A stretch of DNA of 44,072 bases, from positions 1 through 44,072 of IMG/VR virus record IMGVR_UViG_3300029286_000083; one strand, written 5' to 3'. Below the pieces are notes generated by a model that saw only the letters and a list, made by a program, of their open reading frames with translations, was not told where the DNA came from and ran no database searches. This DNA is from a virus. Of this stretch, positions 2,520 through 44,072 are shown in pieces. Every line of letters starts with the position of its first letter. Positions within the stretch are counted from its first letter, which is position 1. Made by a program: the position numbers and the translations under genes.

Positions 2520-2994
2520 TGTAGACCCTGGGATGTCAACATCCGGTTCTGGAATTACAGTTTATAACGAGAAAACAAAGACAGTGGTCTTTAGTAAGTA
2601 TTTGCCACCATCAAAAGGCAAGGCACAAGACACATTGTTTGTAAGATTGAAAGAGATTGTCAGAACAGTTGAAGACCAACTGAGATCACATCCTGGAGCC
2701 ACAGTTGTAGTTGAGGAGACCTTCTATCAAGGTCTTGCCAATCGTTTGCACCAGAGGATGATCGGAGTCTTGATGTATCACTTTGACATCCAGACACTTG
2801 CCCCAACTTCAATTAAGAAGTATGTCACAGGAAGTGGCAGAGCAGGCAAACAGGAGGTGGCTGATGCTTGCAGAGCCCTAGTCAATGAGGAGTGTAGGAT
2901 TGATTGGGAGAATGTAGACATCACAGACTCCATAGGGATAGCAGTAGCCTATGACAGAAAAATAAATGGACAGGTGGAATTTAAAGATGAATAA
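2509..2994 (+). CDS. RuvC-like Holliday junction resolvase
   Basis: The 161-residue protein shows the RNase H-like RuvC layout: strand 1 with D6 in ISVDPG, VVVEE with E69/E70, and VDITDSIGIA with D137 and D140 supplying the C-terminal acidic residues. A basic patch (KKYVTGSGRAGK) lies in between. RuvC-like phage enzymes cut branched DNA intermediates before packaging. The ATG at 2509 overlaps the upstream stop, and GAGGAG lies about ten bases before it. Confidence 0.85.
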   Translation: MIISVDPGMSTSGSGITVYNEKTKTVVFSKYLPPSKGKAQDTLFVRLKEIVRTVEDQLRSHPGATVVVEETFYQGLANRLHQRMIGVLMYHFDIQTLAPTSIKKYVTGSGRAGKQEVADACRALVNEECRIDWENVDITDSIGIAVAYDRKINGQVEFKDE

Positions 2995-4729
2995 AGAAAT
3001 GTTTTCACTAATCATACCAACTAATAGATTCTTCATGGTTGACAACGGAGAGAATGATATTGATAATTTGATCAAGTCAATATTAGATCAAAACTACAAG
3101 AGCTATGAAATTATCATTGTCACTAATGGGGAGGACAGAGAGTTCCTAGCAGAATACTTAACTGAGAAATATATAGACCAGACTAATCTTTTTGTATTCC
3201 AGAATGAGGAAGCCTCTGCTCCTGCTGCCAAGAATATTGGGTTGGTTCACGCCAAGGGCGAATACCACATGTTTATTGGAAGTGACACTTTATTATATCC
3301 TGGACTTCTGGAGAAATATGCAACAGAGTTCAAGGCAAATCCAGATGCTTCTCTTCTGTACACAGACTTGGAGTATTTGGACAATGGAGTTCCCTCTGGT
3401 AGAGTGACCTCCTTTAGACAGTATGATAGGCATGTACTATTAGCAAGCCCATATATTGATGGAACCTCAGCAGTGAGAGCAATCCACTCAAAACCTTGGG
3501 ATACAAGGATCAAGGCATTGCAGGATTGGGGATGGTCAATTAATTGCACATCTGAAGCCCCTGCTGTCAAAGTTCCTGGTGTATGGTATGGGATGGAGAT
3601 GCCAAGAGAAGGTGGTCTTGGAACCTACTTCAACGAGCATTGGGAAGAGCTAGTTGCTCTGACAAAAGAGATCTACAACCTGCCAAAGAGAGATATGGTT
3701 GTCACAGGCGAGAATGAAACTGAAGCAATCAGGATCTCAAAACTGATTGAAGCAGACTTTGTTCCACTATTCATGCTCCAGCAAAGAAAGTTTGAGTATA
3801 AACTATGTTTGATGATTGGATACAATGTCCATCATTTGGATGTGTTGAATCAAGCATTTAAACTATTACCAAACACATGTGCAAAAGTAATATTCCTTTC
3901 TGGTCTTGACCTTTTATCCTTTGAGAGTTTGACTTGGAGAGCGAACAAGAACTTGTGCAAGATCTTGCCAGATTGGTTTTCAAAGGTGATAGTTGGTTCT
4001 TCCGAGGCAGCAGCTCTGCTAGAGGAAATGGGAGTCCAGTCAGGGATCTGTGAACCAGTTGCAGACTTGACCTCATTGCCTTTTAAGTATACAAAAATTA
4101 GAGAAATTCCTACTATTGGTTTATACACTGAAGGGTGGTCTACAGAACAGATTGAACAAGCTAATGTGGTTCTAGCTGCAACCATTGCTGGTTATTTACC
4201 TGAATATAAGTTCAACTACTATGGAACTGATATTAAGGTTGACATACCAAGTGAGGATCCAGCCAAACCAAACTTGACTGATATTAATATAGAAGTCAAA
4301 GGAAACTATCCAGTGGAACAGATTGCAGATGAGATTGACATATTCCTACAAATCCCAACATTTAGCACAGAGGATCTTCTCTCAACTCAAATGATTGTGA
4401 TGGGTAAGGAAGTTGTCAATGCAAACATTAGTATTCATGGAGCCTATAACATTGGTTCTGGTGACTATCATCCAGCTTTCCTGCACAAAGTTGCAAAGGA
4501 AGTTGTGAAACAGATCAAGTATATTATTGAGAACCATAAGAGTGAGGAACAAGCAAAAGCAGATAGGGAGTTCTTCTTAGTTGCTAGAAGTTCCAAAGAG
4601 GTCTTGAACTTCTACCTGAAAACAGCAATTGATGAGGAACCAGCCAAGATGGAGAGAATCAAAGCCAAAATAGAGAAAGCAAAGAAGGGGGCTAGTGATG
4701 ATAATGGTACAGAGAAAAAAGCTGAATAG
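2987..4729 (+). CDS. Two-domain glycosyltransferase (GT2-type GT-A plus GT-B-like region)
   Basis: The 580-residue protein opens with a GT-A fold of family 2 type: SLIIPTNRF, ILDQNYKSYEIIIVTNG, NIGLVHAKGEYHMFIGSD (the acidic metal-binding position) and LLYTDLEYL. From about residue 270 a second, Rossmann-like part follows, with ILPDWFSKVIVGSSEAAALLEEMGV and a later half rich in alternating strands and helices, suggestive of a GT-B-like or accessory domain. The tail is highly charged and helical (KMERIKAKIEKAKKG). I chose the ATG at 2987, which overlaps the resolvase stop and has GGTGG upstream. Substrate unknown. Confidence 0.75.
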   Translation: MNKEMFSLIIPTNRFFMVDNGENDIDNLIKSILDQNYKSYEIIIVTNGEDREFLAEYLTEKYIDQTNLFVFQNEEASAPAAKNIGLVHAKGEYHMFIGSDTLLYPGLLEKYATEFKANPDASLLYTDLEYLDNGVPSGRVTSFRQYDRHVLLASPYIDGTSAVRAIHSKPWDTRIKALQDWGWSINCTSEAPAVKVPGVWYGMEMPREGGLGTYFNEHWEELVALTKEIYNLPKRDMVVTGENETEAIRISKLIEADFVPLFMLQQRKFEYKLCLMIGYNVHHLDVLNQAFKLLPNTCAKVIFLSGLDLLSFESLTWRANKNLCKILPDWFSKVIVGSSEAAALLEEMGVQSGICEPVADLTSLPFKYTKIREIPTIGLYTEGWSTEQIEQANVVLAATIAGYLPEYKFNYYGTDIKVDIPSEDPAKPNLTDINIEVKGNYPVEQIADEIDIFLQIPTFSTEDLLSTQMIVMGKEVVNANISIHGAYNIGSGDYHPAFLHKVAKEVVKQIKYIIENHKSEEQAKADREFFLVARSSKEVLNFYLKTAIDEEPAKMERIKAKIEKAKKGASDDNGTEKKAE

Positions 4730-5191: not shown

Positions 5192-5735
5192 ATACAAACC
5201 AGTTTTTATTGCAATTATTTGTGCCCTACTATTGATTGGAGCATTGTATGTCAAAGAAAGAATTTTGGGAAAAGGAATATCCCAACAACCCATTCGCAAC
5301 ACTTCCGTACTCACTACCCACTCGACTGTTGAAGGAGTCAACATATCTACGCCAGCAGGAATCCAAATCGTCTCGATTAACAACCGAGGTGATAAACGAA
5401 TACTTCCAACAGCTTTGGGAGTTAAGGCTACAAGAGATATCAAAAAAGGGGAACAGCTAGTTGGGGTAATGAAGTATGATGGGGTGATCAAGAATGACTT
5501 GGGAAAATTTCAGTTCTGTTACAATTATCTGGATCAAGAATTTTGTCCAGGTATTGCGTATGATCTTGTTAATGTCGGTGATCTTAGCGGTGGCATTGGC
5601 ATTTTCTCTAGGGGTGCAGGTTTTATTTTTGGGTACTCCATCAGACCAAGTGTTGCTGTTTTGCTTGGCGTGGTCAGTCCTTATAGTTATATACCAGATA
5701 TTCAATTAACTTTTGGAGTGGGGTTTAGACTATGA
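5184..5735 (+). CDS. Membrane-anchored beta-rich protein of unknown function
   Basis: The 183-residue protein starts MTKYKPVF and has one membrane segment at about residues 8-24 (IAIICALLLIGALYV). The rest is exported or cytoplasmic and rich in glycine and aromatic residues. The C-terminal 50 residues alternate like beta strands (GIGIFSRGAGFIFGYSIRPS, then LTFGVGFRL) and end in an aromatic-R-L terminus reminiscent of outer-membrane barrels. It could be an envelope protein or a spanin-like factor, but it has no lipobox and no C-terminal helix, so that is only a guess. ATG 5184 overlaps the upstream stop; a longer in-frame start at 5124 lacks support. Confidence 0.65.
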   Translation: MTKYKPVFIAIICALLLIGALYVKERILGKGISQQPIRNTSVLTTHSTVEGVNISTPAGIQIVSINNRGDKRILPTALGVKATRDIKKGEQLVGVMKYDGVIKNDLGKFQFCYNYLDQEFCPGIAYDLVNVGDLSGGIGIFSRGAGFIFGYSIRPSVAVLLGVVSPYSYIPDIQLTFGVGFRL

Positions 5736-6610
5736 TTTGTTATTTATGTCCATCCACCAATGAGTTCATTGGTGGCATCAGGATCATCTATAATCATGTG
5801 GACATACTTAATAGGAATGGCATTGAGGCAGCAGTCTTACATGAGACTGTAGGATTCAAGGTCACTTGGTTTAAGAACACAACTAAAGTTGTCTACTCTT
5901 TAGATGATAATAATCTACTAATAACTCCAGAGGTATATTCACCTTCAGTGTTTCCTGGGAGAGACAGAATAATATTCAACCAGAATTATTATTTGTCAAA
6001 ATCAATTGACCATACATGCAAAGGGATCATGGCAATATCTCATCATAATGCAAAGTTGATCAGAGCTAAATTCCCAGGGATTCCAGTGACAGTTGTGAAT
6101 TGGAGCCTACCAAAAGACATTTACTTCTATGATCCTCTTATAGCAAAAGAAAATATTATCTCCTTCTTTGGTATTAAGAACACTGTAACCTTGGAGGTTG
6201 TTAGAAAGCACCTCTTAGGATCCTCATGGAAACTTGTTCAGCTAGAGGGATCAGATTTAGAGGTTGCAAACACACTGAGAAAATCAAAAATCTTCCTCCA
6301 GCTAGGTTTGAAGGAAGGGTGCCCAAGACCTCCTGCTGAGGCAATGGCATGTGGTTGTATGGTTGTTGGATACGATGGTGGTGGTGGTAAAGACTACATG
6401 GATGGTAACTATTGTTATCCTTGTGAAAGTGATGATCTTAGTTCTTTACTTATAAAATTGAATAGGGCAATTAATAATCCCTATCTGACAGAGTTAAGCC
6501 CTATTAAAAGCTATTATATCTTAAATAAGTACAGTGCAGAGCTGGAAGAAAACCTGTTATTGGAGGCAATTAAACCTTATGTTAATACCACACGTCAGAC
6601 TCGACATTAA
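5732..6610 (+). CDS. GT-B glycosyltransferase, GT4-like
   Basis: The 292-residue protein shows an N-terminal half with YLCPSTNEFIGGIRIIYNH, like the glycine loop of GT4 enzymes, and a C-terminal half with the hallmark EGCPRPPAEAMACGC near residues 195-210, in which the acidic residues bind the sugar nucleotide. It is shorter than usual GT4 enzymes (350-400), so it is a compact version. It starts in an ATGA overlap with the membrane protein gene and ends overlapping the next gene. Acceptor unknown; the neighbouring sugar-transfer genes suggest a shared pathway. Confidence 0.8.
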   Translation: MICYLCPSTNEFIGGIRIIYNHVDILNRNGIEAAVLHETVGFKVTWFKNTTKVVYSLDDNNLLITPEVYSPSVFPGRDRIIFNQNYYLSKSIDHTCKGIMAISHHNAKLIRAKFPGIPVTVVNWSLPKDIYFYDPLIAKENIISFFGIKNTVTLEVVRKHLLGSSWKLVQLEGSDLEVANTLRKSKIFLQLGLKEGCPRPPAEAMACGCMVVGYDGGGGKDYMDGNYCYPCESDDLSSLLIKLNRAINNPYLTELSPIKSYYILNKYSAELEENLLLEAIKPYVNTTRQTRH

Positions 6611-13449: not shown

Positions 13450-14733
13450 TTAACTTACTCTGCATATTGTTATTTGATTTAGATAAGCTCCTGCTAGGTT
13501 TGCCCCTGAGCAATACCCCCATATACGTTTCCCTGCCTGTATATAACCTACCCATGATATCCCTCCTCCATACCCTGTAGCTGGTACATAAGAGGCAGAC
13601 ATAGTTTCTACTCCTGAATTGTCATTATTTATGCTAGTATCCACATGTATTTCTATAAACTTAACTTGTGGTACAACATTGTACCACGCTACTAGTGAGA
13701 TAGAGTATACACCTGAAGTATTAATTAGAAAACTATCACCAAGAGTAGCAGAATTTACATAAGTTATATCTGATCCAGCAGACTCATTAGCAGTCCCATA
13801 GATAATTACAGATGCATTAGTTGATCCTCTTGTTACCCCATTTGATCTTCTCATCCATGAAATAGGTGTTTTAGGCATAGCCTCAAAAGTTACTGTTTTA
13901 TTAGTATCTATAGACATAGCTAGTTCTGGTGTGGCTGCTGTATTGGTATAAATTCTTAGCTTATTAGCATTTATTGTTAATCCATTAGCAGCAGATTGGG
14001 TGGCAACCTCAGATATAAATAAATGTGAGTAACCAGTTCCAAGTGTGTTCTGATATAAAGCAGCAATAATTTCAGCATCCGTATGAGATGCTGCTAATTC
14101 ATCATAGTCTAAAAGAGCAAAATCAAAAACACCACCATCAAACCAGTCTGCTGCTGCTGCATTATTCTTACCAACAGCACTTGTAGAAGACCAAACACCA
14201 GCTCCTATAGTGGTATTGTTTGAGGCTGCAAGTACACCATTGATATATAGGGCTTGTTTTACCCCTCCATCAATACCTGAGTTGGAGCATAGAACAGCAA
14301 GATGTATCACATTATTAACAGCAAAAGTTGTGTCTGCACTCTGTAACTGTCCTGCTGATCCTGTTGAGTATTGATCAAATGACCAATCGTCTTGTGCCTT
14401 ACTGAGATAGAATTGTACCCCTCTAGCTGTTGCTATTGTATAACCACTGCATACCATTGGATCTGCTGCCACATTCTGTGCAAAGTCTGGTCTGATCCAA
14501 CAATGTATGATGTGATTACTCATATTAATTGATGAACCATCAAAGGTGTATGCCATTGTAGAGCCATCAAGGTCAAAAAACTTTTCGGTTCTACCATTAG
14601 GAAAGGCTGCTGCTGTTGCTTCTAATGCTGGATTATCAACTAGAGTAAAGTCAGTAAGGTTAATAGTGCTTTTAGTGGCTTGCAATTTTTTATAGATTGC
14701 TGCTACTAGTTCATTCTGTGTAATAGCTGCCAT
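13450..14733 (-). CDS. Tail appendage protein with LamG-like and C1q-like domains
   Basis: The 427-residue protein has a concanavalin/LamG-like sandwich at about residues 30-230 (TMAYTFDGSSINMSNHIIHC, ALYINGVLAASN, FDFALLDYDEL). After a linker comes a C1q/TNF-like jelly roll of about 130 residues (INTSGVYSISLVAWYN to the end). C1q-like tips are common in phage receptor-binding proteins and form trimers. ATG 14733 is preferred because GAGAGG lies nine bases upstream; an upstream TTG would add five residues. The start overlaps the end of the 73-residue gene. Confidence 0.65.
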   Translation of the reverse strand: MAAITQNELVAAIYKKLQATKSTINLTDFTLVDNPALEATAAAFPNGRTEKFFDLDGSTMAYTFDGSSINMSNHIIHCWIRPDFAQNVAADPMVCSGYTIATARGVQFYLSKAQDDWSFDQYSTGSAGQLQSADTTFAVNNVIHLAVLCSNSGIDGGVKQALYINGVLAASNNTTIGAGVWSSTSAVGKNNAAAADWFDGGVFDFALLDYDELAASHTDAEIIAALYQNTLGTGYSHLFISEVATQSAANGLTINANKLRIYTNTAATPELAMSIDTNKTVTFEAMPKTPISWMRRSNGVTRGSTNASVIIYGTANESAGSDITYVNSATLGDSFLINTSGVYSISLVAWYNVVPQVKFIEIHVDTSINNDNSGVETMSASYVPATGYGGGISWVGYIQAGKRIWGYCSGANLAGAYLNQITICRVS

Positions 14734-14932
14734 TTGACATCCTCTCAAATTTATCTTGATCTATCTTGTCTTGTTCAAGTTCTTCAGGAGTCCTTAATCT
14801 CTTATTGGCTAAATATATATCTAAAGACTCCATCACAAACCTTTTACTAAAGACCTCGGATTCTAGCCCTTTATCCCAAATGTGTTTAGCAACATCTCTC
14901 TTCGTTTGGTTTGAATATTTTTTAATGTCCAT
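14711..14932 (-). CDS. Small charged protein between tail fibre and appendage genes
   Basis: A 73-residue, highly charged helical protein (KKYSNQTKRDVAKHIWDKGL, RTPEELEQDKIDQDKFERM). ATG 14932 shares its A with the tail fibre stop (TAATG), and GGGGAG lies 11 bases upstream. It could be a fibre chaperone or connector, as small proteins between fibre genes often are. No family recognised. Confidence 0.6.
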   Translation of the reverse strand: MDIKKYSNQTKRDVAKHIWDKGLESEVFSKRFVMESLDIYLANKRLRTPEELEQDKIDQDKFERMSNGSYYTE

Positions 14933-19078: not shown

Positions 19079-19702
19079 TTACTCCGATCTTAGTGTAGTC
19101 CTTGATGTATCGTGCATCCTTCTGCTAGACTTAGCAGCTTTTAATTGCCTCTGATATTTAACTTCATAGGTGTTTGACTCATCATCTGATCTATCTCTTA
19201 AACAATCAGCTAACACACCATACTTTAGAGCCAAAACAACTTCATCATCAAATGGAATTGTTCCAGCTGAAGTGAAAGCAACTAGTTTCTTCTGGAAGTA
19301 ACCAGTGACTTCAACATCTGCAATTGGTGTTGGATACACATAAAAATCTGTTTCATTGATTGGAACGTATGTCGTTGGATCCCCAGAGCTGGTTCCAATC
19401 TGCTCCACAATGTCTAAGTATCTGTGTAGGGAAAGGAAATCTATCCTTCCAGCAGAACTTCCTTTATACATTTTCTTTAGGTTGGACAGTCTAACATTGG
19501 TGTCACCGGATAAGGTGTATTTGGTTTGACCTGATACTAGAGTGATCCCCTTAATATAGTTTAATTCATTCCAAACAAAACTATCTTGGATCTCCTGGAC
19601 TCTATCATTTAAAAAGTCAAGGATCAAATCACTAGTAGTTGAGGTTGAGTCGTTTAGTTTCCTCTGGATTTCGCTTCTGAATGTTGTTACGCTCTTTGAC
19701 AC
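19079..19702 (-). CDS. Tail tubular protein A (head-tail adaptor) candidate
   Basis: About 207 residues. The N-terminal pattern (FRSEIQRKLND, ILDFLNDRVQEIQDSFVWNE) and the later DEVVLALKYGVLADCLRDRS fit the gp11-like adaptor of podoviruses that joins portal and nozzle. GTG 19702 is preferred because GAAGGGAG lies about seven bases upstream; an in-frame ATG at 19723 lacks such a site. The gene begins inside the 3' end of the glycosyltransferase gene, overlapping by 71 bases in another frame. Confidence 0.75.
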   Translation of the reverse strand: MSKSVTTFRSEIQRKLNDSTSTTSDLILDFLNDRVQEIQDSFVWNELNYIKGITLVSGQTKYTLSGDTNVRLSNLKKMYKGSSAGRIDFLSLHRYLDIVEQIGTSSGDPTTYVPINETDFYVYPTPIADVEVTGYFQKKLVAFTSAGTIPFDDEVVLALKYGVLADCLRDRSDDESNTYEVKYQRQLKAAKSSRRMHDTSRTTLRSE

Positions 19703-20795
19703 GTTGTATGCTCCCTTCAGCATATTTATTTACTCTTTTTAGCAATCTAAAATAATACTTTGCTAAACGATTCATAGAGAATCTCTTTTTTACATCCTCA
19801 TAAGATTCTTCACCAATCTTGCGTCTGAGGTCATAGTCTTCAATTAGCAATGATAGGTTCTTAACCCATTCTTCTGTGCTACTGCACAACAATGCTTTCG
19901 TGTTCTTGTAAGGCTCAACATTGGATGCAACCAATGGTGTCTTAGTAGCTGATGCTTCCAAGTACCTTAGATTGGATTTTCCTCTGCTGAAATAGCTGTC
20001 AGTCAGTGGAGCAATCTCAATGTCAAAATTGTATCCTGCTCTATACTTTGGATATTCTTCAATTGGCACGAACTTATTTATAAATTCAACTCTGTCACCT
20101 TTTAACTCATCCAGGAAAGAATCACCAATGAACTTTAACTGCACGTTGGGATACTTCGCTAGGATCTCCAACAGGGCAGGTTTCACTAACTCAAGGTCTT
20201 CTTTGTGACCATGAGCTCCTGAGAATCCAATGGTTATAGTTTCTTTCTTTGAGTGGTCTGTTTCATGGATCCACTTGTCAAAATCAATTCCATTTGGAAC
20301 TACATATATTCTACGATTAAACTTTTCATAAACTGTTTTAAGAGTTTGAGTTGAAACAAATACTGCATCAGAAAGATACAATTGCTCTTCAACAATTGCT
20401 CTGATCTTTGGGTTCTCAATATATGTTTTATAAGCTGCATTTGTTCCTGGGATATGATATATATCATCATCAATCTCTGTGATCACTGGAACACCAAAAT
20501 GATGGCAGAACTTAACAAAAGCAAGTCCCCATTCTGTGTAAGTCATTTGCATGATCACTGGCTTTGTTCCTCTCTCTTTGAAGAGAAACTGGAGCTGACT
20601 TTGGAGTTCCATTCTGAACTCTTTATCAGACATCAGTGCATCAAAACTCCCTTTTAACTTCTGTTGATCAAATGTAATTTCTGTATTGTACACATCTTGG
20701 ATCAATCCAAGTTGTTTCATCTTTACACCATAACTAAAAAGACGATACCAAGCACTTCCATGTGACATAGTAGGTACAATAAACAAATTCATCAT
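19632..20795 (-). CDS. GT-B glycosyltransferase (GT4-like) inside the morphogenesis operon
   Basis: The 387-residue protein begins NLFIVPTMSHGSAWYRLFS and contains PVITEIDDDIYHIPGTN, then YVVPNGIDFDKW and ITIGFSGAHGHKEDLELVKP (start of the second Rossmann domain). FDIEIAPLTDSYFSRGKSNL and YLEASATKTPLVASN follow as the nucleotide-sugar motif. This order matches GT4-type enzymes. ATG 20795 is chosen because AAGGAG lies nine bases upstream; the longer reading frame runs into the hairpin. It sits between capsid and tail genes, so its likely targets include virion proteins. The last 24 codons overlap tail tubular A. Confidence 0.85.
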   Translation of the reverse strand: MMNLFIVPTMSHGSAWYRLFSYGVKMKQLGLIQDVYNTEITFDQQKLKGSFDALMSDKEFRMELQSQLQFLFKERGTKPVIMQMTYTEWGLAFVKFCHHFGVPVITEIDDDIYHIPGTNAAYKTYIENPKIRAIVEEQLYLSDAVFVSTQTLKTVYEKFNRRIYVVPNGIDFDKWIHETDHSKKETITIGFSGAHGHKEDLELVKPALLEILAKYPNVQLKFIGDSFLDELKGDRVEFINKFVPIEEYPKYRAGYNFDIEIAPLTDSYFSRGKSNLRYLEASATKTPLVASNVEPYKNTKALLCSSTEEWVKNLSLLIEDYDLRRKIGEESYEDVKKRFSMNRLAKYYFRLLKRVNKYAEGSIQRVKERNNIQKRNPEETKRLNLNY

Positions 20796-20825
20796 ACAAT
20801 ATTTCTCCTTGTGTTTAGGTGGGCA

Positions 20826-20843
20826 GGGGAGGTGCACCTCCCC
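20826..20843 (-). promoter_or_regulatory. Perfect 18-bp GC-rich palindrome between capsid and glycosyltransferase genes
   Basis: GGGGAGGTGCACCTCCCC is a perfect palindrome in an AT-rich genome, 40 bases after the capsid stop and 31 bases before the glycosyltransferase ATG. A second weaker stem (GTGTC/GACAC) spans 20846-20865. There is no T tract on the minus strand, so it is not a standard terminator. It may protect the 3' end of the capsid mRNA, pause RNA polymerase, or lower expression of the downstream genes. Confidence 0.7.
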
Positions 20844-20883
20844 TTGTGTCTCTAGCCCAGGACACTAGTACGCTTAAACTATA

Positions 20884-21957
20884 TTAAGCAGCATCTACAG
20901 TGATTACACCGAGACCTTGGTTCTGATCAAGAACGATAGCAGCACCTGTGTAAACCCATCCTACAGTTGCAACTCTGCCTAAAGCATGAGCATGGTCAAT
21001 TGCAGAAAAAGGAACTACTTTAGCACTGATACCAGTATCACCTTCAAATTCACTAACAGCAAAACAGTTCTTGCCTAAGAAAATATTCAGAGAAGTTTTC
21101 TTAGAAGCAGTAGCCATTTTAGCAGGTGTCTTTGTGGCAACAATGTTTGTAGAAGCAACAAAACGGCAACCTTCGATTGCAGTCTGTTCACCACGAAACA
21201 TTTTGTCAGCATTGGAGTAACGAGCCCATTCAACATAGTCAGGATCCGATCTCAACATGTTGATCTGAGTAGGTCTGCTAACACAAACATAAGAATCATC
21301 GTACGGAAGTACGTTGTCTTCTTGAAATTTGCTAACAACGTGTCTAACTTTAGCAACAGTTAAACGGCTGTACACATTCTGCATTGCACCAGTTAGTGCA
21401 TTGAAAGCTGTGCTAGTTTTAACTTCAGTGATATTACCAGCAGAAGTCTGTGACAGATAGATCAAAGGAAGTTTGGTCTTCTGTACTGATTTACCAGTGA
21501 TCAAAGCAGTTACAACAGTAGCAGCGATCGGAGCATCAGCAATACTTGTAACAGTCCCGAACAATGTGCCCTGGATGTATTTATCAATCGTACGAGCAGA
21601 AGCTTCACCGAAGCGAACTTGCAACTGATCGATCATATTGATGATAGCTCCACGAGAATAGAGATCACTAATCTGTTTCTTTCCACCAAACTGAATCAGG
21701 TCAACTGATTTAGATCCAGCAGTGATACCAAGAGCATCAGGATCATTATATTCAGATGTGAGGATCTCACCATCTTCAAAAGCATTGATGGTATGAAAAG
21801 TGATGGTCAAGCCATTCTTCTCAGTCATCATTTTCTTAATTGCGAATTGTTTCATTACGCAATTATTTTCCAAGACTTCCAGTAAGGATTTGTCATGGAA
21901 AGAACCGAACATATCATTTTCTGCGGTTCCGTCAGAATTTACAATATAATCTGTCAT
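20884..21957 (-). CDS. Major capsid protein, N4-gp56-like
   Basis: The 357-residue protein has the look of N4-gp56 family capsid proteins. An N-terminal region (LTITFHTINAFEDGEILTSE) leads into ALGITAGSKSVDLIQFGGKK, then QISDLYSRGAIINMIDQL and ARTIDKYIQGTLFGT. The C-terminal half has AVSEFEGDTGISAKVVPFS. Position after a scaffold-like gene supports the call. It is flanked downstream by the palindrome at 20826-20843. Its codons look slightly less AT-rich than those of flanking genes, as expected for high expression. Confidence 0.85.
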   Translation of the reverse strand: MTDYIVNSDGTAENDMFGSFHDKSLLEVLENNCVMKQFAIKKMMTEKNGLTITFHTINAFEDGEILTSEYNDPDALGITAGSKSVDLIQFGGKKQISDLYSRGAIINMIDQLQVRFGEASARTIDKYIQGTLFGTVTSIADAPIAATVVTALITGKSVQKTKLPLIYLSQTSAGNITEVKTSTAFNALTGAMQNVYSRLTVAKVRHVVSKFQEDNVLPYDDSYVCVSRPTQINMLRSDPDYVEWARYSNADKMFRGEQTAIEGCRFVASTNIVATKTPAKMATASKKTSLNIFLGKNCFAVSEFEGDTGISAKVVPFSAIDHAHALGRVATVGWVYTGAAIVLDQNQGLGVITVDAA

Positions 21958-22789: not shown

Positions 22790-23032
22790 TTATTTATGAT
22801 CTTTTAGTTTTCTGTTAGCCTCCTGTTCCGTAAATTTTATTTCCGAGGATAAGTACCTCAGAATCATGTCACAGACTTGCAGGGTTGCCCTAGCTGTGAC
22901 ATCCTCTTGTTCTCTTAATTTTTCATAAGAAGAAGTTTTTAATAGTCCAACACGTTTCATTAACAATTTAAAAGCATAATTTTGTCTTAGCTTTTGATAC
23001 TCAATTGCTAACTCTACTGGATCTACATTCAT
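22790..23032 (-). CDS. Small helical protein between portal and scaffold
   Basis: An 80-residue, helical, charged protein (VELAIEYQKLRQNYAFKLLM, REQEDVTARATLQVCDMILR). It starts in an ATGA overlap with the portal stop. Its position suggests a head assembly or portal accessory role, but no family is recognised. Confidence 0.65.
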   Translation of the reverse strand: MNVDPVELAIEYQKLRQNYAFKLLMKRVGLLKTSSYEKLREQEDVTARATLQVCDMILRYLSSEIKFTEQEANRKLKDHK

Positions 23033-24924
23033 TGAACTCCTCCTGCCGGATTAGGTTGTGAACTCTCAGAAATGGCTTGTGCCTGCCCTTGCCCAGTTGG
23101 ATCATTGATCAACTGTTGCTGAATTGCTTGCTGTGCCATGTTGTTCGCCATCTGTTCTTCAGTTAAGAATAACTCATGGGTGTCATGTTCCCCACTCATC
23201 TGCTGCCATATCTTCTCAATCAAATATTTAAAGTTGATCATGTTGATTGCATTTGGAACACCTGCTGCAACTGTTAAGAAGTTTGTCAACTGATGAGCCA
23301 ATTGCTCCTGCTGAACTAATGCTCTTGAACCAACAGGAATGAAGTCAATGTCAAGTGCAATGTCTTCAGGAGATACTTCAATGTATTCCGTTACACCATC
23401 TTGTCCGTTATATTTCAAGACCTGAGCTTCTGTCATGTATTGCTGTAGTAGTCCGTAGAACTGCCTTATATAAGGAAGTAGCCAGGTTTCTTCAAACGTC
23501 AATACTTTCCCACGAATCTTGCTCTGTCCTAAATTGGCAATTGTTCTTGTCTGCCCATTAGATCTTACAGCTCCACTCTCATAGGAACCTTGCATGATCT
23601 TAGAGGCTGTCAAATCTTGGATCTCTCTTATTGCAATGTCCACCAAATTTGATGTGTTAACTTTTGAAAACGTAATCTGAGTTAGTAACTGAGATAACTG
23701 TTTTCCTTCTTGGTTGTCAACCCAGATCACTCCACCTTTGCGAGCAATTAACTCATCTGCATTAACCCCAGTGCTACGGTCAGCAATGACCATTATATTA
23801 TTTGATATTGCATCATTGTCAATCTGTACATTAACTGCTGTATTTAGCAACTGGTCTGCATCTTCACACAACTCAACCAAACCTCTTGATTCAATTTCTC
23901 CAGGTCTGATTATTAAGTTTGCACATTGGAAAGGTTTCTCCATGTGTTCATATGGATTCTGTTCATCATAAATGATAACACAACCACCAGCAACCATTGT
24001 CACCTGTGTTGCAATGTCATTCCAATATTCTAGGATTTCAATTTCACCATATTCATTGGCGTTAACTTTTTCCACATATTCTGTCGACACATTGTCTACA
24101 GTTGAATTGCCAAGTGATATTCCTTGGTTTGCTTTCTTAGTAGTAGTGTCTGCTTCAGCTAAATCAGCTTGCCTTGAAATCTCATACTTGGTTTCTAATT
24201 CTTCTAGGTTCTTGTAAAGCTTCTCTTTCGTCTGGTTCCTAAGCTGGTACTGCTTGTTGGCTGCTTTTAGTTTGTCAATTGTTGACCAAGTTCTATGGAT
24301 CACCCAAGTGCTCTCAATGTTCTTGGCTCTGGAAGAATAGAAAATATCCTTATAAGAAATGAACTCTAAATGAGGACAGTCTTTCTTAACAATTGTTTTC
24401 TTTGTCTTCTCAGTGTGTGTTCCAACTACTTCACCATTCTCATCCAGGTCTTCAACTTCTTCTGAAACTGTTCTCTCATAAGCTTCATACTTCCATGTTA
24501 GTTTTGAGAAAGCAATTCCACACACCATTAACTCAGTCAATAGTGCAACATACTCACGATACATCTGAGATTTGTTAATGAAGATCTTGATCATCTTTTC
24601 AATGACACCTGCTTGGGCATCATCAATCTTTCCATCATTGCCTTCAACTTTGAATGGATTGCCACGCATGAAGATCATTTCAACGAATTGACTAAGCACT
24701 GTGTCAACACCTTTGAAAACTTCCTTCATATTAATTGTTGAAGTTGTGGTTCTCACTGAACCCACTACATGGTCATGGGTTGCTTTAAATCCATTTGATT
24801 TCCAGCCTTCCCAAATGTCATAGTATCTGGCAAACCTTGCATTTCTACCTGAGAAGGTTGACTCAGCAGATGTCTTTAGTCCTGCTATAAACTCTGCTTT
24901 CTTTTTTTGTTCTTCAGTTTGCAT
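23029..24924 (-). CDS. Portal (head-tail connector) protein
   Basis: The 631-residue protein has features of podovirus portals: a helical N terminus, a long middle with EILEYWND and IIYDEQNPYEHMEKPFQCAN, then GQTRTIANLGQSKIRGKVLT and FEETWLLPYIRQFYGLLQQYM (stem/wing helices), ending in a Gln/Pro-rich tail. Size and order (terminase, portal, scaffold, capsid) agree. It forms the ring through which DNA is packaged. The ATG overlaps the upstream stop (TAATG). Confidence 0.8.
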   Translation of the reverse strand: MQTEEQKKKAEFIAGLKTSAESTFSGRNARFARYYDIWEGWKSNGFKATHDHVVGSVRTTTSTINMKEVFKGVDTVLSQFVEMIFMRGNPFKVEGNDGKIDDAQAGVIEKMIKIFINKSQMYREYVALLTELMVCGIAFSKLTWKYEAYERTVSEEVEDLDENGEVVGTHTEKTKKTIVKKDCPHLEFISYKDIFYSSRAKNIESTWVIHRTWSTIDKLKAANKQYQLRNQTKEKLYKNLEELETKYEISRQADLAEADTTTKKANQGISLGNSTVDNVSTEYVEKVNANEYGEIEILEYWNDIATQVTMVAGGCVIIYDEQNPYEHMEKPFQCANLIIRPGEIESRGLVELCEDADQLLNTAVNVQIDNDAISNNIMVIADRSTGVNADELIARKGGVIWVDNQEGKQLSQLLTQITFSKVNTSNLVDIAIREIQDLTASKIMQGSYESGAVRSNGQTRTIANLGQSKIRGKVLTFEETWLLPYIRQFYGLLQQYMTEAQVLKYNGQDGVTEYIEVSPEDIALDIDFIPVGSRALVQQEQLAHQLTNFLTVAAGVPNAINMINFKYLIEKIWQQMSGEHDTHELFLTEEQMANNMAQQAIQQQLINDPTGQGQAQAISESSQPNPAGGVQ

Positions 24925-26233: not shown

Positions 26234-26308
26234 TGGTTGCGGAGACAGGACTTGCACCTATGATCTTTGGGGTATGAACCCAACGTGTTACTCCTACACT
26301 ACTCCGCT
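26234..26308 (-). tRNA. tRNA with CAT anticodon (Met; initiator-like traits)
   Basis: The fold has acceptor AGCGGAG/CTCCGCA, with six pairs and an A-A mismatch at 1:72. The D-stem is GTGT/ACAC. The anticodon stem is TTGGG/CCCAA with loop TTCATAC. The variable loop has five bases. The T-stem is ATAGG/CCTGT with loop TGCAAGT, and CCA is encoded. An unpaired 1:72 and three consecutive G-C pairs under the anticodon loop are initiator traits. The loop TTCATAC and the T11-A24 pair look like elongator tRNA-Met. A lysidine-modified tRNA-Ile2 cannot be excluded. The gene starts on the base right after the TerL stop codon. Confidence 0.9.
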
Positions 26309-27928
26309 TTAATACCCTGTCTTAGAAAACTTTGGAGTGTATGATGCTGTACTTTTTAAAGTTCTATCCGAAGTTGTTGTCATCTTTGGTTTTAAAATAA
26401 CAGAGATGTTAGCAACAGCATCGATAACGTCATCATGCTCCATGTGTCCATAGTCAACCATCTGATCAATTAATTTCGCCTTACCTTCTCCAATAGAAAT
26501 TAGCTCCCCATTAACAGGGATTAAACTTTCTTTTTCAATTCCGTCATCCAGCACAATGTAGAACTTTTCATTTTCTGTAAATGGCTGTAGACTCCTTACC
26601 CTCTGGGCTTTGGAGGCTGTTGTTGGTGCATGGATCTGAACAATCTTTCTTGCCCACTGTGGGAAATTGAGGTTGATCAAACTAATGTACGCCTTACAGA
26701 AATTAACTTCCAACCCTATCTTTCCAGGGTTCCATTTAGCAACTGCATCACCCAACATTGTTAAGAACTCGTTGGATGATATTTTTGATTTTGCAATGAC
26801 ATCCATGATATAAACTCTTGGTAGAGTTGTACCACCTGTCATGCTAACTCCCAATGTAACAATTGCCCAATCATCTGCTCTTGAGTAGGTTGAATCAATT
26901 CCTGCTGGATCAACCAATGTCACATAATAAAGAGTGTCTTTGATGTCTGCTCTTTTAATAAATCTAAGATCTTCAATCCTAAATGCTGAGTCTTTCTCAG
27001 ACACCGGATGATTCATCTGCTGACAGGAGAACTCATAGAGTCCCACGTTTTGCAGCATGTCCAGAAAGTATTGCTTGTCAAACTTTTCTGGGAATAGAAC
27101 ATAGGTATCTTCCTGCATCAGAAGAGTTTTAGGATCCCTCTTCCAAGTCTTAGGAAATAATTCTTCCAGTCGTTTATTTCTTGCACATGGTTCATCAATC
27201 GTGAAATCAAGTGCCGTCTGGGATTTGGCTAAAATGAAATTGTATAGATCATTAAAATGCCAATTCGTCCCGACCATTAACATGGAACCATCTGGCTCCA
27301 AAAGATTTAAACAATCCTTGTAAAGCTTGAACTGTCCTTCACGCAGGATTGGGCTGTTCGAGTTTCCTCTAGTTGCCACATCGTCCAAAATAATAATGTC
27401 GAAATGCTTTCCTGTTGGATCCTTGCCAACCGAGAAAACGGAAACAGTGCGGTCTTTCATAATCTTGGTTCTTGGTGCAATGGTGATACCATCTTTTTTA
27501 GACCAAGTGTTCTTATTCTCCCATTCACCATAGAGCTCAATGAATTTCTTGTTCGAAACCATGTGCTCAATAATTTCTTCCAGGATCTTACTAGCCAAAT
27601 CTTCCGTACCCGAACCAATGCCAAAACGTAGGTTTGGATTCTTGGTCAACATCCACAAAACCCAGCCAACGGAAATTAGTGAGGTCTTCAAATGTCCACG
27701 AGGAATCTTGATCAAGCCTTTATGGAAGTCCTCGGAAATTGCATTCGCAATTTCGATATGGATCGGGGCAACCATGTCTCCATATCCGAGAACTTCCGAA
27801 CAGAATAGGAGGAGGTTGTTTTCACATTTCTTCTTGAGTAGAGTATTCTCTAAGTGCCTCGCAAGTTTGTCTAATTGTATCAATTCTCTTTTCAGTTTCA
27901 GAGATAAGATCTCCGATTGAAAGTCCAT
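26309..27928 (-). CDS. Terminase large subunit
   Basis: The 539-residue protein has an ATPase with Walker A-like PRGHLKTS (about 76-83) and Walker B FDIIILDD (about 176-183), then GTNWHFNDLY. The nuclease domain has LVDPAGIDSTYSRADDW (acidic residue about 340) and a late HMEHDDVIDAVANI. Together these drive DNA translocation and cutting. The ATG at 27928 is chosen because GGAG lies six bases upstream. It overlaps the small terminase gene by 107 bases in another frame. The stop codon is immediately followed by the tRNA. Confidence 0.92.
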   Translation of the reverse strand: MDFQSEILSLKLKRELIQLDKLARHLENTLLKKKCENNLLLFCSEVLGYGDMVAPIHIEIANAISEDFHKGLIKIPRGHLKTSLISVGWVLWMLTKNPNLRFGIGSGTEDLASKILEEIIEHMVSNKKFIELYGEWENKNTWSKKDGITIAPRTKIMKDRTVSVFSVGKDPTGKHFDIIILDDVATRGNSNSPILREGQFKLYKDCLNLLEPDGSMLMVGTNWHFNDLYNFILAKSQTALDFTIDEPCARNKRLEELFPKTWKRDPKTLLMQEDTYVLFPEKFDKQYFLDMLQNVGLYEFSCQQMNHPVSEKDSAFRIEDLRFIKRADIKDTLYYVTLVDPAGIDSTYSRADDWAIVTLGVSMTGGTTLPRVYIMDVIAKSKISSNEFLTMLGDAVAKWNPGKIGLEVNFCKAYISLINLNFPQWARKIVQIHAPTTASKAQRVRSLQPFTENEKFYIVLDDGIEKESLIPVNGELISIGEGKAKLIDQMVDYGHMEHDDVIDAVANISVILKPKMTTTSDRTLKSTASYTPKFSKTGY

Positions 27929-28334
27929 CATAATCTCCTAAGTCTTCGTCGATCTTTCCTTTTTGGTAATCCATGAACGCCTTGATGAATTTGTCGGGCT
28001 TACCTTGCAGATCTTGAAGTGCCTTGACTACGTTTTCGGTAGAAAACACAGAGTCTATGGTTTCTTCTTTTGGTGTTTGAGATTGAGGAGGCACCAGGAT
28101 CGCCTTGGCTGCCTCGGAACGATAGGTTTGGTAATCTACCTCATACTTTCTTATTAACTCTTGAATTTGGGGCATTTTCTTTAGTCTGGAGGCTTGTTTG
28201 TATGGGTCTGTGTTCCAATAACCTAGTTCTTGACAGATCTTCCCAGCAGCCTTCTTGGGATCTGCTGCTACTGCTCTGGCGAAAGCATCGTATTTCTGTT
28301 CGTCTGAGAGTTTCGGGGAGGACATCTCTGTCAT
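27822..28334 (-). CDS. Terminase small subunit candidate
   Basis: The 170-residue protein precedes TerL and has a helical DNA-binding N terminus (KAAGKICQELGYWNTDPYKQ, SRLKKMPQIQELIRKYEVDY) as in HTH-containing small terminases, a proline-rich linker and a charged coiled C terminus (ISETEKRIDTIRQTCEALRE). It would recognise phage DNA for packaging. AAGGA lies upstream of ATG 28334. It is the first gene of the leftward arm. Confidence 0.75.
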   Translation of the reverse strand: MTEMSSPKLSDEQKYDAFARAVAADPKKAAGKICQELGYWNTDPYKQASRLKKMPQIQELIRKYEVDYQTYRSEAAKAILVPPQSQTPKEETIDSVFSTENVVKALQDLQGKPDKFIKAFMDYQKGKIDEDLGDYDGLSIGDLISETEKRIDTIRQTCEALREYSTQEEM

Positions 28335-32595: not shown

Positions 32596-33438
32596 ATGGC
32601 AAAGAAAAAAGAAGTAATAAAAGGATACAAGGCATTTAATATTAATGATAAGGGTGAAATAAGTTGTAGAGGGGTTACATTCAAGGTTGGTAAATGGTAT
32701 CATATGCCAAAGGGAAAAAAAATTAGCTTATGTCAGTCTGGATTTCACTTTTGTCAATCTGGTGCTGATGTTTACAATTATTACCCTTTCACTACAGGGA
32801 CTGTAGTTGGTGAAATAGAAGCCAAAGATGTTTCCCCTGAGAAAGAGAATGACAGTAAAAGGGTGTGTGGTTCAATTAGGGTTGTAAAATTATTGGGTTT
32901 AGAGGGATTTAACACAGGGAACAGCAACACAGGGCACAGCAACACAGGGAACAGCAACACAGGGAACAGCAACACAGGGCACAGCAACACAGGGAACAGC
33001 AACACAGGGAACTACAACACAGGATACTACAACACAGGGAACAGCAACACAGGGCACAGCAACACAGGGAACAGCAACACAGGGAACGACAACACAGGGA
33101 ACTACAACACAGGGAACGACAACACAGGGGACTACAACACAGGATACTACAACACAGGGAACTACCATACAGGATATTTTGGTATAGGGGAAGCTCCTGT
33201 ATATATGTTTGGGGAGCCAACTAAATATGACAGAGCAGTGCTAGGACAGCTTATACATAAGATTGATTTCTCTTTGGTCACAAAATATAGATTAAAGTCA
33301 AATCCAGAGTATATGGTGAAGAAATGCTGGAAGCTCTGGTATCTCAGGGCAACACCAAATCAAAGAAAACTTTTTACTGAACTGCCTAATTTTAGTAAAA
33401 AATACTTCTACGAGATGTCAGGATTGAAAATAGATTAA
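32596..33438 (+). CDS. DUF7666-like protein with NTGxx pentapeptide repeats
   Basis: The 280-residue protein has three parts. Residues 1-100 (VIKGYKAFNINDKGEISCRG, SGFHFCQSGADVYNYYP) resemble the DUF7666-type domain found in phage proteins ahead of repeat tracts. Residues 106-195 are 18 pentapeptides of the form NTG followed by two variable residues. The C-terminal 85 residues are a basic globular part with WKLWYLRATPNQRK. NxGxx repeats can form beta-helices. The variable residues are nearly all N, H, Y, D or S. Role unknown; a binding surface or structural rod is possible. GGAGG precedes the ATG. Confidence 0.75.
   Translation: MAKKKEVIKGYKAFNINDKGEISCRGVTFKVGKWYHMPKGKKISLCQSGFHFCQSGADVYNYYPFTTGTVVGEIEAKDVSPEKENDSKRVCGSIRVVKLLGLEGFNTGNSNTGHSNTGNSNTGNSNTGHSNTGNSNTGNYNTGYYNTGNSNTGHSNTGNSNTGNDNTGNYNTGNDNTGDYNTGYYNTGNYHTGYFGIGEAPVYMFGEPTKYDRAVLGQLIHKIDFSLVTKYRLKSNPEYMVKKCWKLWYLRATPNQRKLFTELPNFSKKYFYEMSGLKID
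32911..33180 (+). repeat. 18 tandem 15-bp units encoding NTGxx
   Basis: Each unit reads AACACAGGG or AACACAGGA, then NAC, then AGC, TAC or GAC. The fourth codon uses all four bases in its first position (AAC, CAC, GAC, TAC), while the rest is almost fixed. The first 17 units encode NTG and the last encodes HTG. Two antisense frames across it are also open, which is a by-product of the repeat. Confidence 0.95.
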
Positions 33439-34799: not shown

Positions 34800-34827
34800 G
34801 TTTCAAAGTAGTGCCATATATAAGGAG
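34800..34827 (+). promoter_or_regulatory. Duplicated 28-bp leader element, copy 1
   Basis: GTTTCAAAGTAGTGCCATA followed by TATAAGGAG, just after a stop codon and ending in the Shine-Dalgarno of the 34834 gene. It matches 41123-41150 at 27 of 28 bases. It may be a promoter (TATATA) or a translation control element. Confidence 0.65.
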
Positions 34828-40599: not shown

Positions 40600-40700
40600 T
40601 TACAACTCTGATATTTTATCTTAGTCTTTGGTTTCAGGTTGCTTTTATCCCGATCTTAGTTGCTATTGCACTAATTGGAGGTTATTTTGGATGTCTGTAG
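40596..40700 (+). CDS. 34-residue membrane peptide
   Basis: ATG 40596 overlaps the polymerase stop. MITTLIFYLSLWFQVAFIPI then LVAIALIGGYFGCL is one long hydrophobic segment. It carries the TTGGAGG site of the next gene. Coupled to a peptidoglycan-directed enzyme, it might serve as a pinholin-like partner. Confidence 0.5.
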   Translation: MITTLIFYLSLWFQVAFIPILVAIALIGGYFGCL

Positions 40701-41122
40701 ATATTGATATTGTATTGGAAACATATAAAGAAATTAGAGCTGACGGCACCTGTTATATTTGGGAGGATGGTAAGATCAAACAGCAATTCCCAATATGCTC
40801 TGGGGGTCACGGAAAAGGATGGCTGGAGATTGGATCCTATGCAATTAGGGGCTTAATTTCACCAGAAAGAATTGACAAGATCCCAGGATCAGTTGCATAT
40901 CAGACAGATGGCTACGGATGGGCTGCACCCTTATCACCTCTCTTTGGAAGCCATAGGCTAGGCATCTGGATGCACCCTGATGGCAATGTACCTGGATCAC
41001 TGGGCTGTGTGGTATGGACTATGCCAAAAGAGTTTAATGTTGCCCTCTATTCCTACTTATTAGCGGCACTAAAGGTACAGAGTTCCATACTAGTTTCAGT
41101 CAGAAAAACATGGTTAGACTAA
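40691..41122 (+). CDS. L,D-transpeptidase-like (YkuD-type) protein, possible lysin
   Basis: The 143-residue protein has GSHRLGIWMHPDGNVPGSLG with H88 and H95, ending in S103-L-G-C106. That His then SxGC arrangement is the signature of YkuD-like L,D-transpeptidases, in which Cys attacks the peptide stem of peptidoglycan. No signal peptide is present, so export would need a holin. It is the only peptidoglycan-directed enzyme I recognise in the genome, hence a candidate endolysin. ATG 40691 is set by TTGGAGG at nine bases. Confidence 0.7.
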   Translation: MSVDIDIVLETYKEIRADGTCYIWEDGKIKQQFPICSGGHGKGWLEIGSYAIRGLISPERIDKIPGSVAYQTDGYGWAAPLSPLFGSHRLGIWMHPDGNVPGSLGCVVWTMPKEFNVALYSYLLAALKVQSSILVSVRKTWLD

Positions 41123-41150
41123 GTTTCAAAGTAGTACCATATATAAGGAG
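41123..41150 (+). promoter_or_regulatory. Duplicated 28-bp leader element, copy 2
   Basis: GTTTCAAAGTAGTACCATA followed by TATAAGGAG, directly after the stop of the 40691 gene and providing the Shine-Dalgarno of the 41160 gene. It differs from copy 1 at 34800-34827 by one base. Confidence 0.65.
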
Positions 41151-42012: not shown

Positions 42013-42250
42013 TAGACAGGAACTATATGATAATGTACGTTATCCAGAAACAGCAGGGGAATTGAATTTCTGCATCACAAGTCTCATTGACTGCTACCTT
42101 TCAGTTTCAAAGAACTATCAGGCAATCAATGATTGTCTTGGTGCACTAGAGGGTGCCAAACTGGAATTGTATAGGCGTGTTGCAGCTCCTTATGAGGACA
42201 AGAAAATTGTAGCAAATGGTGAAGTATACTCGGAGGACACTTTAAAATGA
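41990..42250 (+). CDS. Conserved phage protein (DUF6899-like)
   Basis: The 86-residue protein starts MPYIAPSDRQELYDN and has GELNFCITSLIDCYLSVSKN, then YQAINDCLGALEGAKLELYR and APYEDKKIVANGEVY. That layout matches a small protein family found in many phages (DUF6899-like), mostly helical and of unknown role. GAGGAGG precedes the ATG. It ends in an ATGA overlap with the glycosyltransferase gene. Confidence 0.75.
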   Translation: MPYIAPSDRQELYDNVRYPETAGELNFCITSLIDCYLSVSKNYQAINDCLGALEGAKLELYRRVAAPYEDKKIVANGEVYSEDTLK

Positions 42251-43608
42251 ATGAATTTGGAATGATCATTATTAATTACAATCAACCAGAGCTAACTGAT
42301 GACCTGCTGGTTGACATAAGATCACAGGATGTTTCCTTTGATCTCACTGTGCTTGATAATGGTAGTGATCAACCATACATGAAAGCTTCACAGAGAAATG
42401 CTAGGAATGAAGACTTGAACAGAGTATGGAACAAATTCCATGAAGAGAGCAATCACAAGTATCAGTGCTTCTTAAATAATGACACAAGGATTACAAAGAA
42501 TTTTGTGTCAGACACGATCAAGGTATTTGAGAAAGAACCTACAGTTGGTATCGTGGTGCACATCACAAATGATCCCAACTTTTGTAGACCATCAGAGCTT
42601 AACTATAAGATCCTGGATAATCCATCCTATCAAGGATGGGATTTCACAATTAGGAGAGACCTGTACAAAAGTATCCCAGAATCATTAAGGGTATTTGGTG
42701 GGGATACCTACCTGTTCTCCTGGATCCTAAAACAAGGATTCAAGTTTGCTGTTCTATATAGTTCTCCTATCATTCATTATAGATCAAAGACAGTTAGGGC
42801 TAGAGATGATTGGAAAGAACTAAGTATACAAGATCAAACAAAGTATGATGAGATAAGAGTGATTGAGAAACTAGGATCCCTGTTACCATTGAATGTTGCT
42901 AGAGGAATTGGAGATCATCTACCACCAGCTGACATGCTACTACCACAGATGGTCTATAGAGAGTTAATAGACAAAGACCTCAGATTCTACCAAGAGATGT
43001 TGACAAAGATTAGATGCAATCAATCCTTTGCATACACTCGTTGGGGTGATGGAGAATGGTTTGCAATTGAAAAGAGACAGGGGTACAACTGTGATAAGTG
43101 CAATTATTACCCTAGTCTTGGAATTGCACTTGAGAAAATAGTTGAAAAGAAACAAGACTATTATATGGGAAGAGGAAAAGATAAGAACCTATATTCAGCA
43201 GCTAGTAAGTATCAACAGGATTGGCAATCAGCAGAGGTTTTCATTGATGCAGACTATACTGGTAACCTTGATCTTTTCATAGATGTTTTGAAGACTAAGC
43301 ATGTTGTCTACATTGGAAACAAGGATCTTAAAAAGCTACCCTTTGTTGATGAGTTCATTGAGATCCCACAGGCTAATGTCTGGAATTTTAAAGACTCAAT
43401 TATGAGCAAGATCAGAGCAACAATGACAGATGACCACAAGATCTACCTGTTTTCAGCTGGAATGGCATCAAATGTTTTCATTCATGAGTTGTGGAAAAGC
43501 AATGACTGTAATACATACATTGATGTTGGATCTGTCTTTGATAGATATGTTGGAAAGACAACTAGGAGCTATCAGAAATTAATGCCAGAAATTAAGGAGT
43601 TAAAATGA
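42247..43608 (+). CDS. Fused GT-A (GT2) and GT-D-like glycosyltransferase
   Basis: The 453-residue protein has an N-terminal GT-A domain: MIIINYNQPELTDDLLVDIR, LTVLDNGSD, CFLNNDTRITKNFV (acidic metal site) and GGDTYLFSWIL. After a helical linker, residues about 245-453 carry AYTRWGDGEWFAI (DGE at 268-270) and a closing YLFSAGMASNVFIHELW then YIDVGSVFD, which fit the GT-D fold (DUF1792 type). Both domains may act in sequence on one glycan. It is the complete allele of the truncated gene at 1-960. Confidence 0.8.
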   Translation: MNEFGMIIINYNQPELTDDLLVDIRSQDVSFDLTVLDNGSDQPYMKASQRNARNEDLNRVWNKFHEESNHKYQCFLNNDTRITKNFVSDTIKVFEKEPTVGIVVHITNDPNFCRPSELNYKILDNPSYQGWDFTIRRDLYKSIPESLRVFGGDTYLFSWILKQGFKFAVLYSSPIIHYRSKTVRARDDWKELSIQDQTKYDEIRVIEKLGSLLPLNVARGIGDHLPPADMLLPQMVYRELIDKDLRFYQEMLTKIRCNQSFAYTRWGDGEWFAIEKRQGYNCDKCNYYPSLGIALEKIVEKKQDYYMGRGKDKNLYSAASKYQQDWQSAEVFIDADYTGNLDLFIDVLKTKHVVYIGNKDLKKLPFVDEFIEIPQANVWNFKDSIMSKIRATMTDDHKIYLFSAGMASNVFIHELWKSNDCNTYIDVGSVFDRYVGKTTRSYQKLMPEIKELK

Positions 43609-44072
43609 GTGACCTTGATGAACTAGACCTACTAATGGATGAGCTATCACAAAAGAAGCACATCTCAGTTTCCCAGATCGGGCAAGTCAAAAGATGCCCT
43701 CGGCAATGGGTTTATAGATACATAGAAGGAAAGAAAGTTGCCCCTGGGATTGCCTTGATCACTGGTTCATCATTCGACGAAGCAATGAACATGAACTACA
43801 CTCAAAAGATTGAGACCAAGACTGATCTACCAGTTGAACAGATGGTTGACAAGTTTTCTGATGAGCTAGATCGTAGAGTTGAAGAGCTTGAGGATCCAGA
43901 AGAAAAGAAAGAAAAGGGTGTGATCAAAGATGTCTTTACGGCAGGGATACCTCTCTTTTGTAATCAGATTGTATCGAAGGTGCAACCAATCAAAGTGCAA
44001 ACGAAGGTTCTCATCCCTCTGGATGACCAGTTTGATTTTCTTGGATTTCTGGATTTGGAGACTGAAACAAAG
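42649..44072. repeat. Right copy of the divergent terminal repeat
   Basis: Counterpart of 1-1424. The final 126 bases (43947-44072) are identical to 1299-1424, after which the window stops. Such an end is expected where an assembler reaches the point at which two strain variants merge. Confidence 0.95.
43605..44072 (+). CDS. PD-(D/E)XK nuclease, second allele, truncated by window end
   Basis: The 5' 156 codons of the gene at 957-1751. All 19 base differences in the shared part are synonymous, so the proteins are identical there. The window ends just after GFLDLETETK, before the DNK motif. Confidence 0.9.
   Translation, partial: MSDLDELDLLMDELSQKKHISVSQIGQVKRCPRQWVYRYIEGKKVAPGIALITGSSFDEAMNMNYTQKIETKTDLPVEQMVDKFSDELDRRVEELEDPEEKKEKGVIKDVFTAGIPLFCNQIVSKVQPIKVQTKVLIPLDDQFDFLGFLDLETETK

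Follow-up and report, generated by a model that had tools for sequence, protein, structure and literature searches.

The window, that is, the whole 44,072-nucleotide stretch analysed here, is the complete IMG/VR virus record IMGVR_UViG_3300029286_000083, a podovirus with a circular genome of ~42.6 kb (about 42,648 bp). The contig ends (1-1424 vs 42649-44072) overlap gaplessly at 95% identity with 71 differences, mostly at third codon positions, which is most simply read as a circular assembly joining two co-existing strain variants. Comparison of the terminal copies gave a dN/dS of 0.07 in the gene with GT2 and GT-D-like domains, and zero nonsynonymous changes in the nuclease gene part.

The + strand module encodes a DnaB helicase, PolA, a RuvC-like resolvase, a PD-(D/E)XK nuclease and a replication initiator, and the - strand late module encodes the terminase large subunit (TerL), an SU10-type portal, the major capsid protein (MCP), an SU10-type adaptor, a 703-aa hub-like protein, and BppL_N-repeat, LamG and 1082-aa proteins. 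The glycosyltransferase (GT) ORF at the centre of this study is placed in the late module, with the MCP gene on one side and the adaptor gene on the other (Table 1), an interval that we call the slot. Besides the slot GT there are genes for at least three further glycosyltransferases (2966-4729, 5732-6610 and 42247-43608), the C-terminal part of the last recurring at 1-960. LamG domain excepted, the other late ORFs scanned in the window gave no carbohydrate-enzyme match, and the ORFs scanned held no integrase or repressor domain; the phage, an uncultured podovirus, looks lytic. Its closest TerL among phage records is that of ANMV-1, a virus of an uncultured archaeon (26%, 8e-33), which is too distant to name a host, and a profile search of genome contigs with the TerL alignment returned no relative.

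Genes for tRNA-Trp and tRNA-Met lie at 1811-1885 and 26234-26308, the tRNA-Met gene within the late module just after TerL, and a YkuD-like L,D-transpeptidase domain (3.8e-5; 40628-41122) is coded right after PolA. A DUF7666 and pentapeptide-repeat protein (32596-33438) contains a 15-bp tandem repeat (about 32866-33210) and is adjoined by strong GC skew at 30-33 kb. Directly upstream of the ORF starts at 34834 and 41160 stands a 28-nt near-identical repeat (34800-34827 and 41123-41150) that ends in AAGGAG and is a candidate phage promoter or leader element; a further 30-nt repeat pair is found at 28506 and 31199.

Table 1. Coordinates of the principal features of the window
Feature	Position	Strand	Basis and remarks
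GT2-type glycosyltransferase, 587 aa	2966..4729	+	PF00535 3.9e-13
Second GT4-type glycosyltransferase, 292 aa	5732..6610	+	PF00534 5.7e-8
LamG/ConA-like protein	13450..14748	-	PF13385 (Laminin_G_3) 1.1e-7; 36-40% homologues in relatives
Tail hub-like protein, 703 aa	16963..19074	-	Next after adaptor in window and relatives; 27-31% to L182, L181 and L184 proteins, same order
SU10-type head-tail adaptor	19079..19723	-	PF24175 1.4e-19; downstream slot border; start may be internal
GT4-type (GT-B fold) glycosyltransferase, 387 aa	19632..20795	-	Pfam, PHROG, alignment, AlphaFold2 model
GC-rich hairpin GGGGAGGTGCACCTCCCC	20820..20845	-	Predicted fold; after MCP gene
Major capsid protein (MCP)	20884..21957	-	PHROG 1357 8e-21; upstream slot border
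SU10-type portal	23029..24924	-	PF23899 3.3e-19
Terminase large subunit (TerL)	26309..27931	-	PHROG 38 6e-70; GT-independent bait
GT2 and GT-D-like domains, 453 aa	42247..43608	+	PF00535 4.6e-5; GT-D-like 0.0026, below cut-off

The slot glycosyltransferase and the hairpin behind the capsid gene

The slot GT ORF runs from an ATG at 20795, with an AAGGAG Shine-Dalgarno sequence just upstream, to a stop at 19632-19634, and overlaps the adaptor ORF by up to 92 nt (19632-19723). Its product matches Pfam Glyco_trans_1_2 above the cut-off (3.7e-6) and PHROG 7162, 'glycosyltransferase' (7e-37), and it keeps all of the residues that are invariant in a 36-row homologue alignment (R18, D109, D110, N168, K273, S274 and E280). 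In its C-terminal donor-site motif, compared with the classic EX7E, Lys stands in place of the first Glu, and E280 is the conserved acidic residue. The AlphaFold2 model (pLDDT 86.5, pTM 0.85) has two Rossmann-like domains that match those of solved retaining GT4 enzymes, the PDB matches being MshA (3c4q, 1.1e-14), BshA, PglA and PimB' with TMq of about 0.6-0.7. Judged by its alignment and predicted fold the protein is a GT-B/GT4 glycosyltransferase with intact conserved residues, and it is presumably an active transferase. A hydropathy scan found no transmembrane segment in any GT of the window, and the weak best matches of these GTs in NCBIfam include EPS and teichuronic-acid enzymes.

The original prediction of a GT4-like enzyme on the same strand between the MCP gene and the next tail gene is thus borne out as to ORF, family and position. 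The label 'tail tubular A' that it gave to the downstream neighbour does not hold, the sole Pfam match of that protein being to the SU10 adaptor family (PF24175, 1.4e-19); we prefer an SU10-type identity to one in the T7 gp11 family.

A GC-rich hairpin does lie between the MCP and GT genes, as had been claimed, and it had been taken to set the GT apart. It lacks a T-run and was not called as an intrinsic terminator, and we reject that role for it. Each of the eight relatives found through TerL, like the window, has a GC-rich hairpin after the MCP gene, and two of these relatives lack any glycan gene in the slot. Because it is kept after the MCP gene even where the slot is empty, and is without a T-run, it belongs to the MCP transcript and is not a marker or boundary of the GT. 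It probably serves as an attenuator of the transcript or a stabiliser of its 3' end, limiting read-through or protecting that end, and its role would probably be to let capsid protein be made in excess.

The MCP-adaptor slot in relatives

No relative came up in IMG/VR when the GT, MCP and TerL were each used as single-protein queries, and alignments were therefore needed. Alignments of the MCP (A8) and TerL (A9) were used as baits, so that relatives were gathered independently of the GT and selection bias was removed. Sugar enzymes were present in the slot in 10 of the 12 relatives that were found only via TerL or MCP and had the slot visible, a small sample in which most records are contig fragments. 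The enzymes are of several kinds, namely GT4, GT2, NAD-sugar epimerase/dehydratase, methyltransferase, DegT aminotransferase and radical SAM. When late genes were counted in these 12 relatives, sugar enzymes accounted for 26/64 genes in the slot and for 0/45 across the remaining late intervals (Fisher p=9e-8), and for all 20 loci the counts were 48/125 and 0/68 (p=2e-11); these p-values are indicative, since the genes of a single phage do not count as independent and slot genes served in part as seeds for the sugar-enzyme HMMs. Independent Pfam scans back the enzyme types in six loci (L094, L095, L096, L116, L179 and L181), covering GT2, GT4, GDP-Man dehydratase/epimerase, methyltransferases, radical SAM/SPASM and DegT.

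The gene order of one relative, L182, is identical to that of the window (MCP-GT-adaptor-hub), with identities of 46% for TerL, 42% for the MCP, 36% for the GT, 34% for the portal, 30% for the adaptor and 27% for the hub. In the 41.8-kb record L184 (TerL 41%, PolA 40% and GT 38% identical to the window) the order is MCP-epimerase-136 aa-74 aa-LamG-GT-adaptor-hub; in L185 it is MCP-epimerase-adaptor-hub, in L181 MCP, DegT aminotransferase, GT2, GT2, GT, adaptor, and in L179 and L187 MCP-epimerase-...-LamG, while runs headed by a GT2 gene occupy the slot in L175, L176, L177 and L180. Among the distant homologues found through the GT, L094 and L096 have the MCP gene, a run of GT2, methyltransferase and GT4 genes, the GT and an SU10 adaptor, the run of L096 including a radical SAM gene as well and L094 having an epimerase between GT and adaptor; L100 and L105 have one or two small ORFs between the MCP gene and the GT, followed by the adaptor. 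The slot carries no glycan gene in two close relatives, L186 and L189, and its function is therefore dispensable in the lineage, which counts against a role in virion glycosylation.

The closest slot orthologues of the window GT are 36-40% identical to it. In a quick maximum-likelihood tree the window GT was grouped with those of L182 and L184 (support 96), and this group joined L181 and L094-L096 in a larger clade (support 99); the phi92-type homologues fell across the midpoint root. The label 'slot' required 5 changes on this tree vs a mean of 14.1 for shuffled labels, and none of 500 shuffles was as low. The GT2 at 2966-4729 has a homologue in all four of the long records that bear the GT; three of these have it within the slot, and the fourth has it on the + strand. 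Slot homologues of this GT2 are seen in L094, L096/L176, L177, L180 and L181, and a + strand homologue, as in the window, in L184. The slot GT and this GT2 likely act in one pathway.

No glycan gene was found in the slot in 41 assessable gut-phage MCP relatives (80 loci, gut-dominated alignment A1), and slot use is therefore a trait of the lineage and not of the capsid fold. The MCP-adaptor junction is a recurrent site of glycan enzymes in the relatives of this phage, an observation that is new here: orthologues of the GT occupy the same slot, and the other late junctions are without sugar enzymes, so the proposed check on gene conservation and position supports the placement on which the original prediction was built.

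The virion had been proposed to carry two lectin-like appendages, one of which, the LamG protein (13450-14748), is supported by its match to Laminin_G_3 (1.1e-7); the other, a 676-aa protein, has BppL_N repeats in Pfam and not a lectin domain. In L184 the LamG homologue is part of the slot, and in L179 and L187 it comes after an epimerase gene behind the MCP gene; the window copy is downstream in the tail region. This linkage to the slot is one independent hint that the phage lectin may contact glycans. An insert in the MCP (about aa 130-195) is common to the clade with glycan cassettes and absent from the gut relatives without the GT (alignment A10). It may be the acceptor region, a lead only, as clade and cassette are confounded and the AlphaFold2 model of the MCP (pLDDT 65.7, below 50 at insert aa 135-160 and 181-196) is too weak to place the insert on the surface.

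The target of the slot enzymes

In our judgement a variable glycan is probably built on virion proteins by these soluble enzymes, which would be produced along with the capsid. The GT would be made from the late (head-tail) transcript together with the capsid, a co-expression suggested by gene order, and the slot GT and at least three other phage GTs would assemble a short glycan on virion proteins. Addition of the glycan would take place in the cytoplasm of the host, either ahead of assembly or while it is under way, and the acceptor would most likely be the capsid or an associated head or tail protein; an effect on adsorption or evasion may be supposed. The MCP-adaptor junction would serve as a cassette site where glycan-building enzymes are kept and swapped, and swapping would make the sugar coat differ between relatives. 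We favour virion glycosylation because of late co-expression, exclusive use of the slot, soluble enzymes and sugar-tailoring partners, and because recognised membrane or base-modification partners are absent. The other GTs of the window count against it, as they reside in the + strand module beside the replication genes, outside the late genes. The original prediction had argued from late placement to decoration of the virion, and its premise is strengthened in that the placement is conserved and the enzymes are enriched there; its conclusion still faces a main rival in modification of the host surface.

According to this rival, which we consider unlikely though well worth weighing, the enzymes act late in infection to alter glycans of the host surface (LPS, capsule or S-layer), for example so that progeny do not adhere to debris or so that other phages are excluded, and the late operon merely tolerates the cargo. 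Phage GTs have often been interpreted as LPS-modifying auxiliary genes (PMC9599517, PMC10980836), the set of GT2, GT4, GDP-Man dehydratase, DegT and methyltransferase is typical of surface polysaccharide clusters, and the EPS and teichuronic-acid matches, weak as they are, point the same way. On the other hand, the GTs have no transmembrane segment by hydropathy, the family scans named no flippase, bactoprenol GT or ligase family, and the sugar enzymes are confined to one late junction and never occur at the others; prophage seroconversion in particular is unlikely given that the ORFs scanned yielded neither an integrase nor a repressor domain. Another reading, which is improbable, treats the slot as a hotspot for neutral cargo and the GT as a transient moron without a role in the virion: the content of the slot does vary widely, with cassettes that differ in number and type and an empty slot in L186 and L189, but it leans strongly towards a single function class, the conserved GT residues are intact, the terminal copies of another window GT are under purifying selection (dN/dS 0.07), and the GT clade tracks the phage lineage, as in L182, where GT identity (36%) falls among those of the MCP (42%), portal (34%) and adaptor (30%).

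Glycosylation of the phage DNA, which would block host nucleases, appears very improbable. Some viruses are known to encode GTs whose substrate is DNA (Pyle et al. 2024, cited in PMC12619734), and the homologues in phi92-like phages adjoin primase-helicase genes, one of them lying near a polymerase gene as well. These homologues, however, are separated from the window GT by the midpoint root of the tree, late placement with the capsid is ill-suited to modification during replication, and the ORFs scanned, including the large unannotated ones on the + strand, held no thymidylate-synthase-like, TET/JBP or other base-modifying enzyme, although a chemistry as yet unknown is possible.

When phage GTs turn up in metagenomes they are commonly catalogued as genes for modifying host LPS or DNA. 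That a conserved slot beside the capsid gene holds sugar enzymes across diverse podoviruses, and the other late junctions do not, argues that many phage GTs act on the particle, and glycan genes between the MCP and adaptor genes offer a simple genomic criterion for picking phages in which to test virion glycosylation. Were virion glycosylation to be confirmed here, a process shown in mycobacteriophages would extend to an unrelated phage group.

Comparison with known systems

The gtr O-antigen conversion cassettes also include phage-borne GTs, and the window GT2 has a weak GtrB-like PHROG match (7e-5). They differ in that the window GTs have no membrane segment, no flippase family was named in the family scans and the locus is not at a prophage end, and we do not count the slot among them. 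The GTs of PHROG 7162 and the phi92 type share the signature of the same GT4 subfamily (YxR, DDD, KSN..E) but are located beside primase-helicase genes in large phages and in a separate part of the tree; membership of the slot GT among DNA-hypermodifying GTs is not supported, no companion base-modifying enzyme having been found in the ORFs scanned.

Certain mycobacteriophages had been invoked as precedent, and Che8, Corndog and Myrna are indeed reported to have virion proteins glycosylated by phage GTs, with capsid and tail tube among the acceptors (PMC12363180, PMC11256854). Che8 gp108-110 (Freeman et al. 2023, as related in those papers) resemble the present case in that several GTs are encoded per phage, but they lie at the right genome end, whereas the window GT lies directly after the MCP gene. 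The slot GT profile matched none of the three, so that the precedent is one of process and not of homologous enzymes. The window GT2 family profile matches gp108 (7.5e-12) and is the sole window profile to do so; the C-terminal part of gp108 matches proteins annotated as O-methyltransferase in other phages. The window GT is thus similar in kind and different in family, with a putative acceptor.

It is possible, but rather doubtful, that this podovirus lineage builds its own multi-enzyme, lineage-variable capsid glycan coat from a dedicated site behind the MCP gene, and that the phage LamG protein reads or carries the glycans; such a coat would be comparable to the capsid glycans of chloroviruses, here in a tailed phage. 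A similar arrangement is seen in a distant phage, Podoviridae sp. ctQWt234 (MW202801.1, Manatee Spring), which differs in its other head and tail genes (a phage stabilization protein, as in P22), in its longer cassette and in having an integrase, and which is alike in carrying genes for a radical-SAM-type enzyme, two GTs, PhyH, a methyltransferase and a NodB-like protein close behind its MCP gene, with a GT 31% identical to that of the window.
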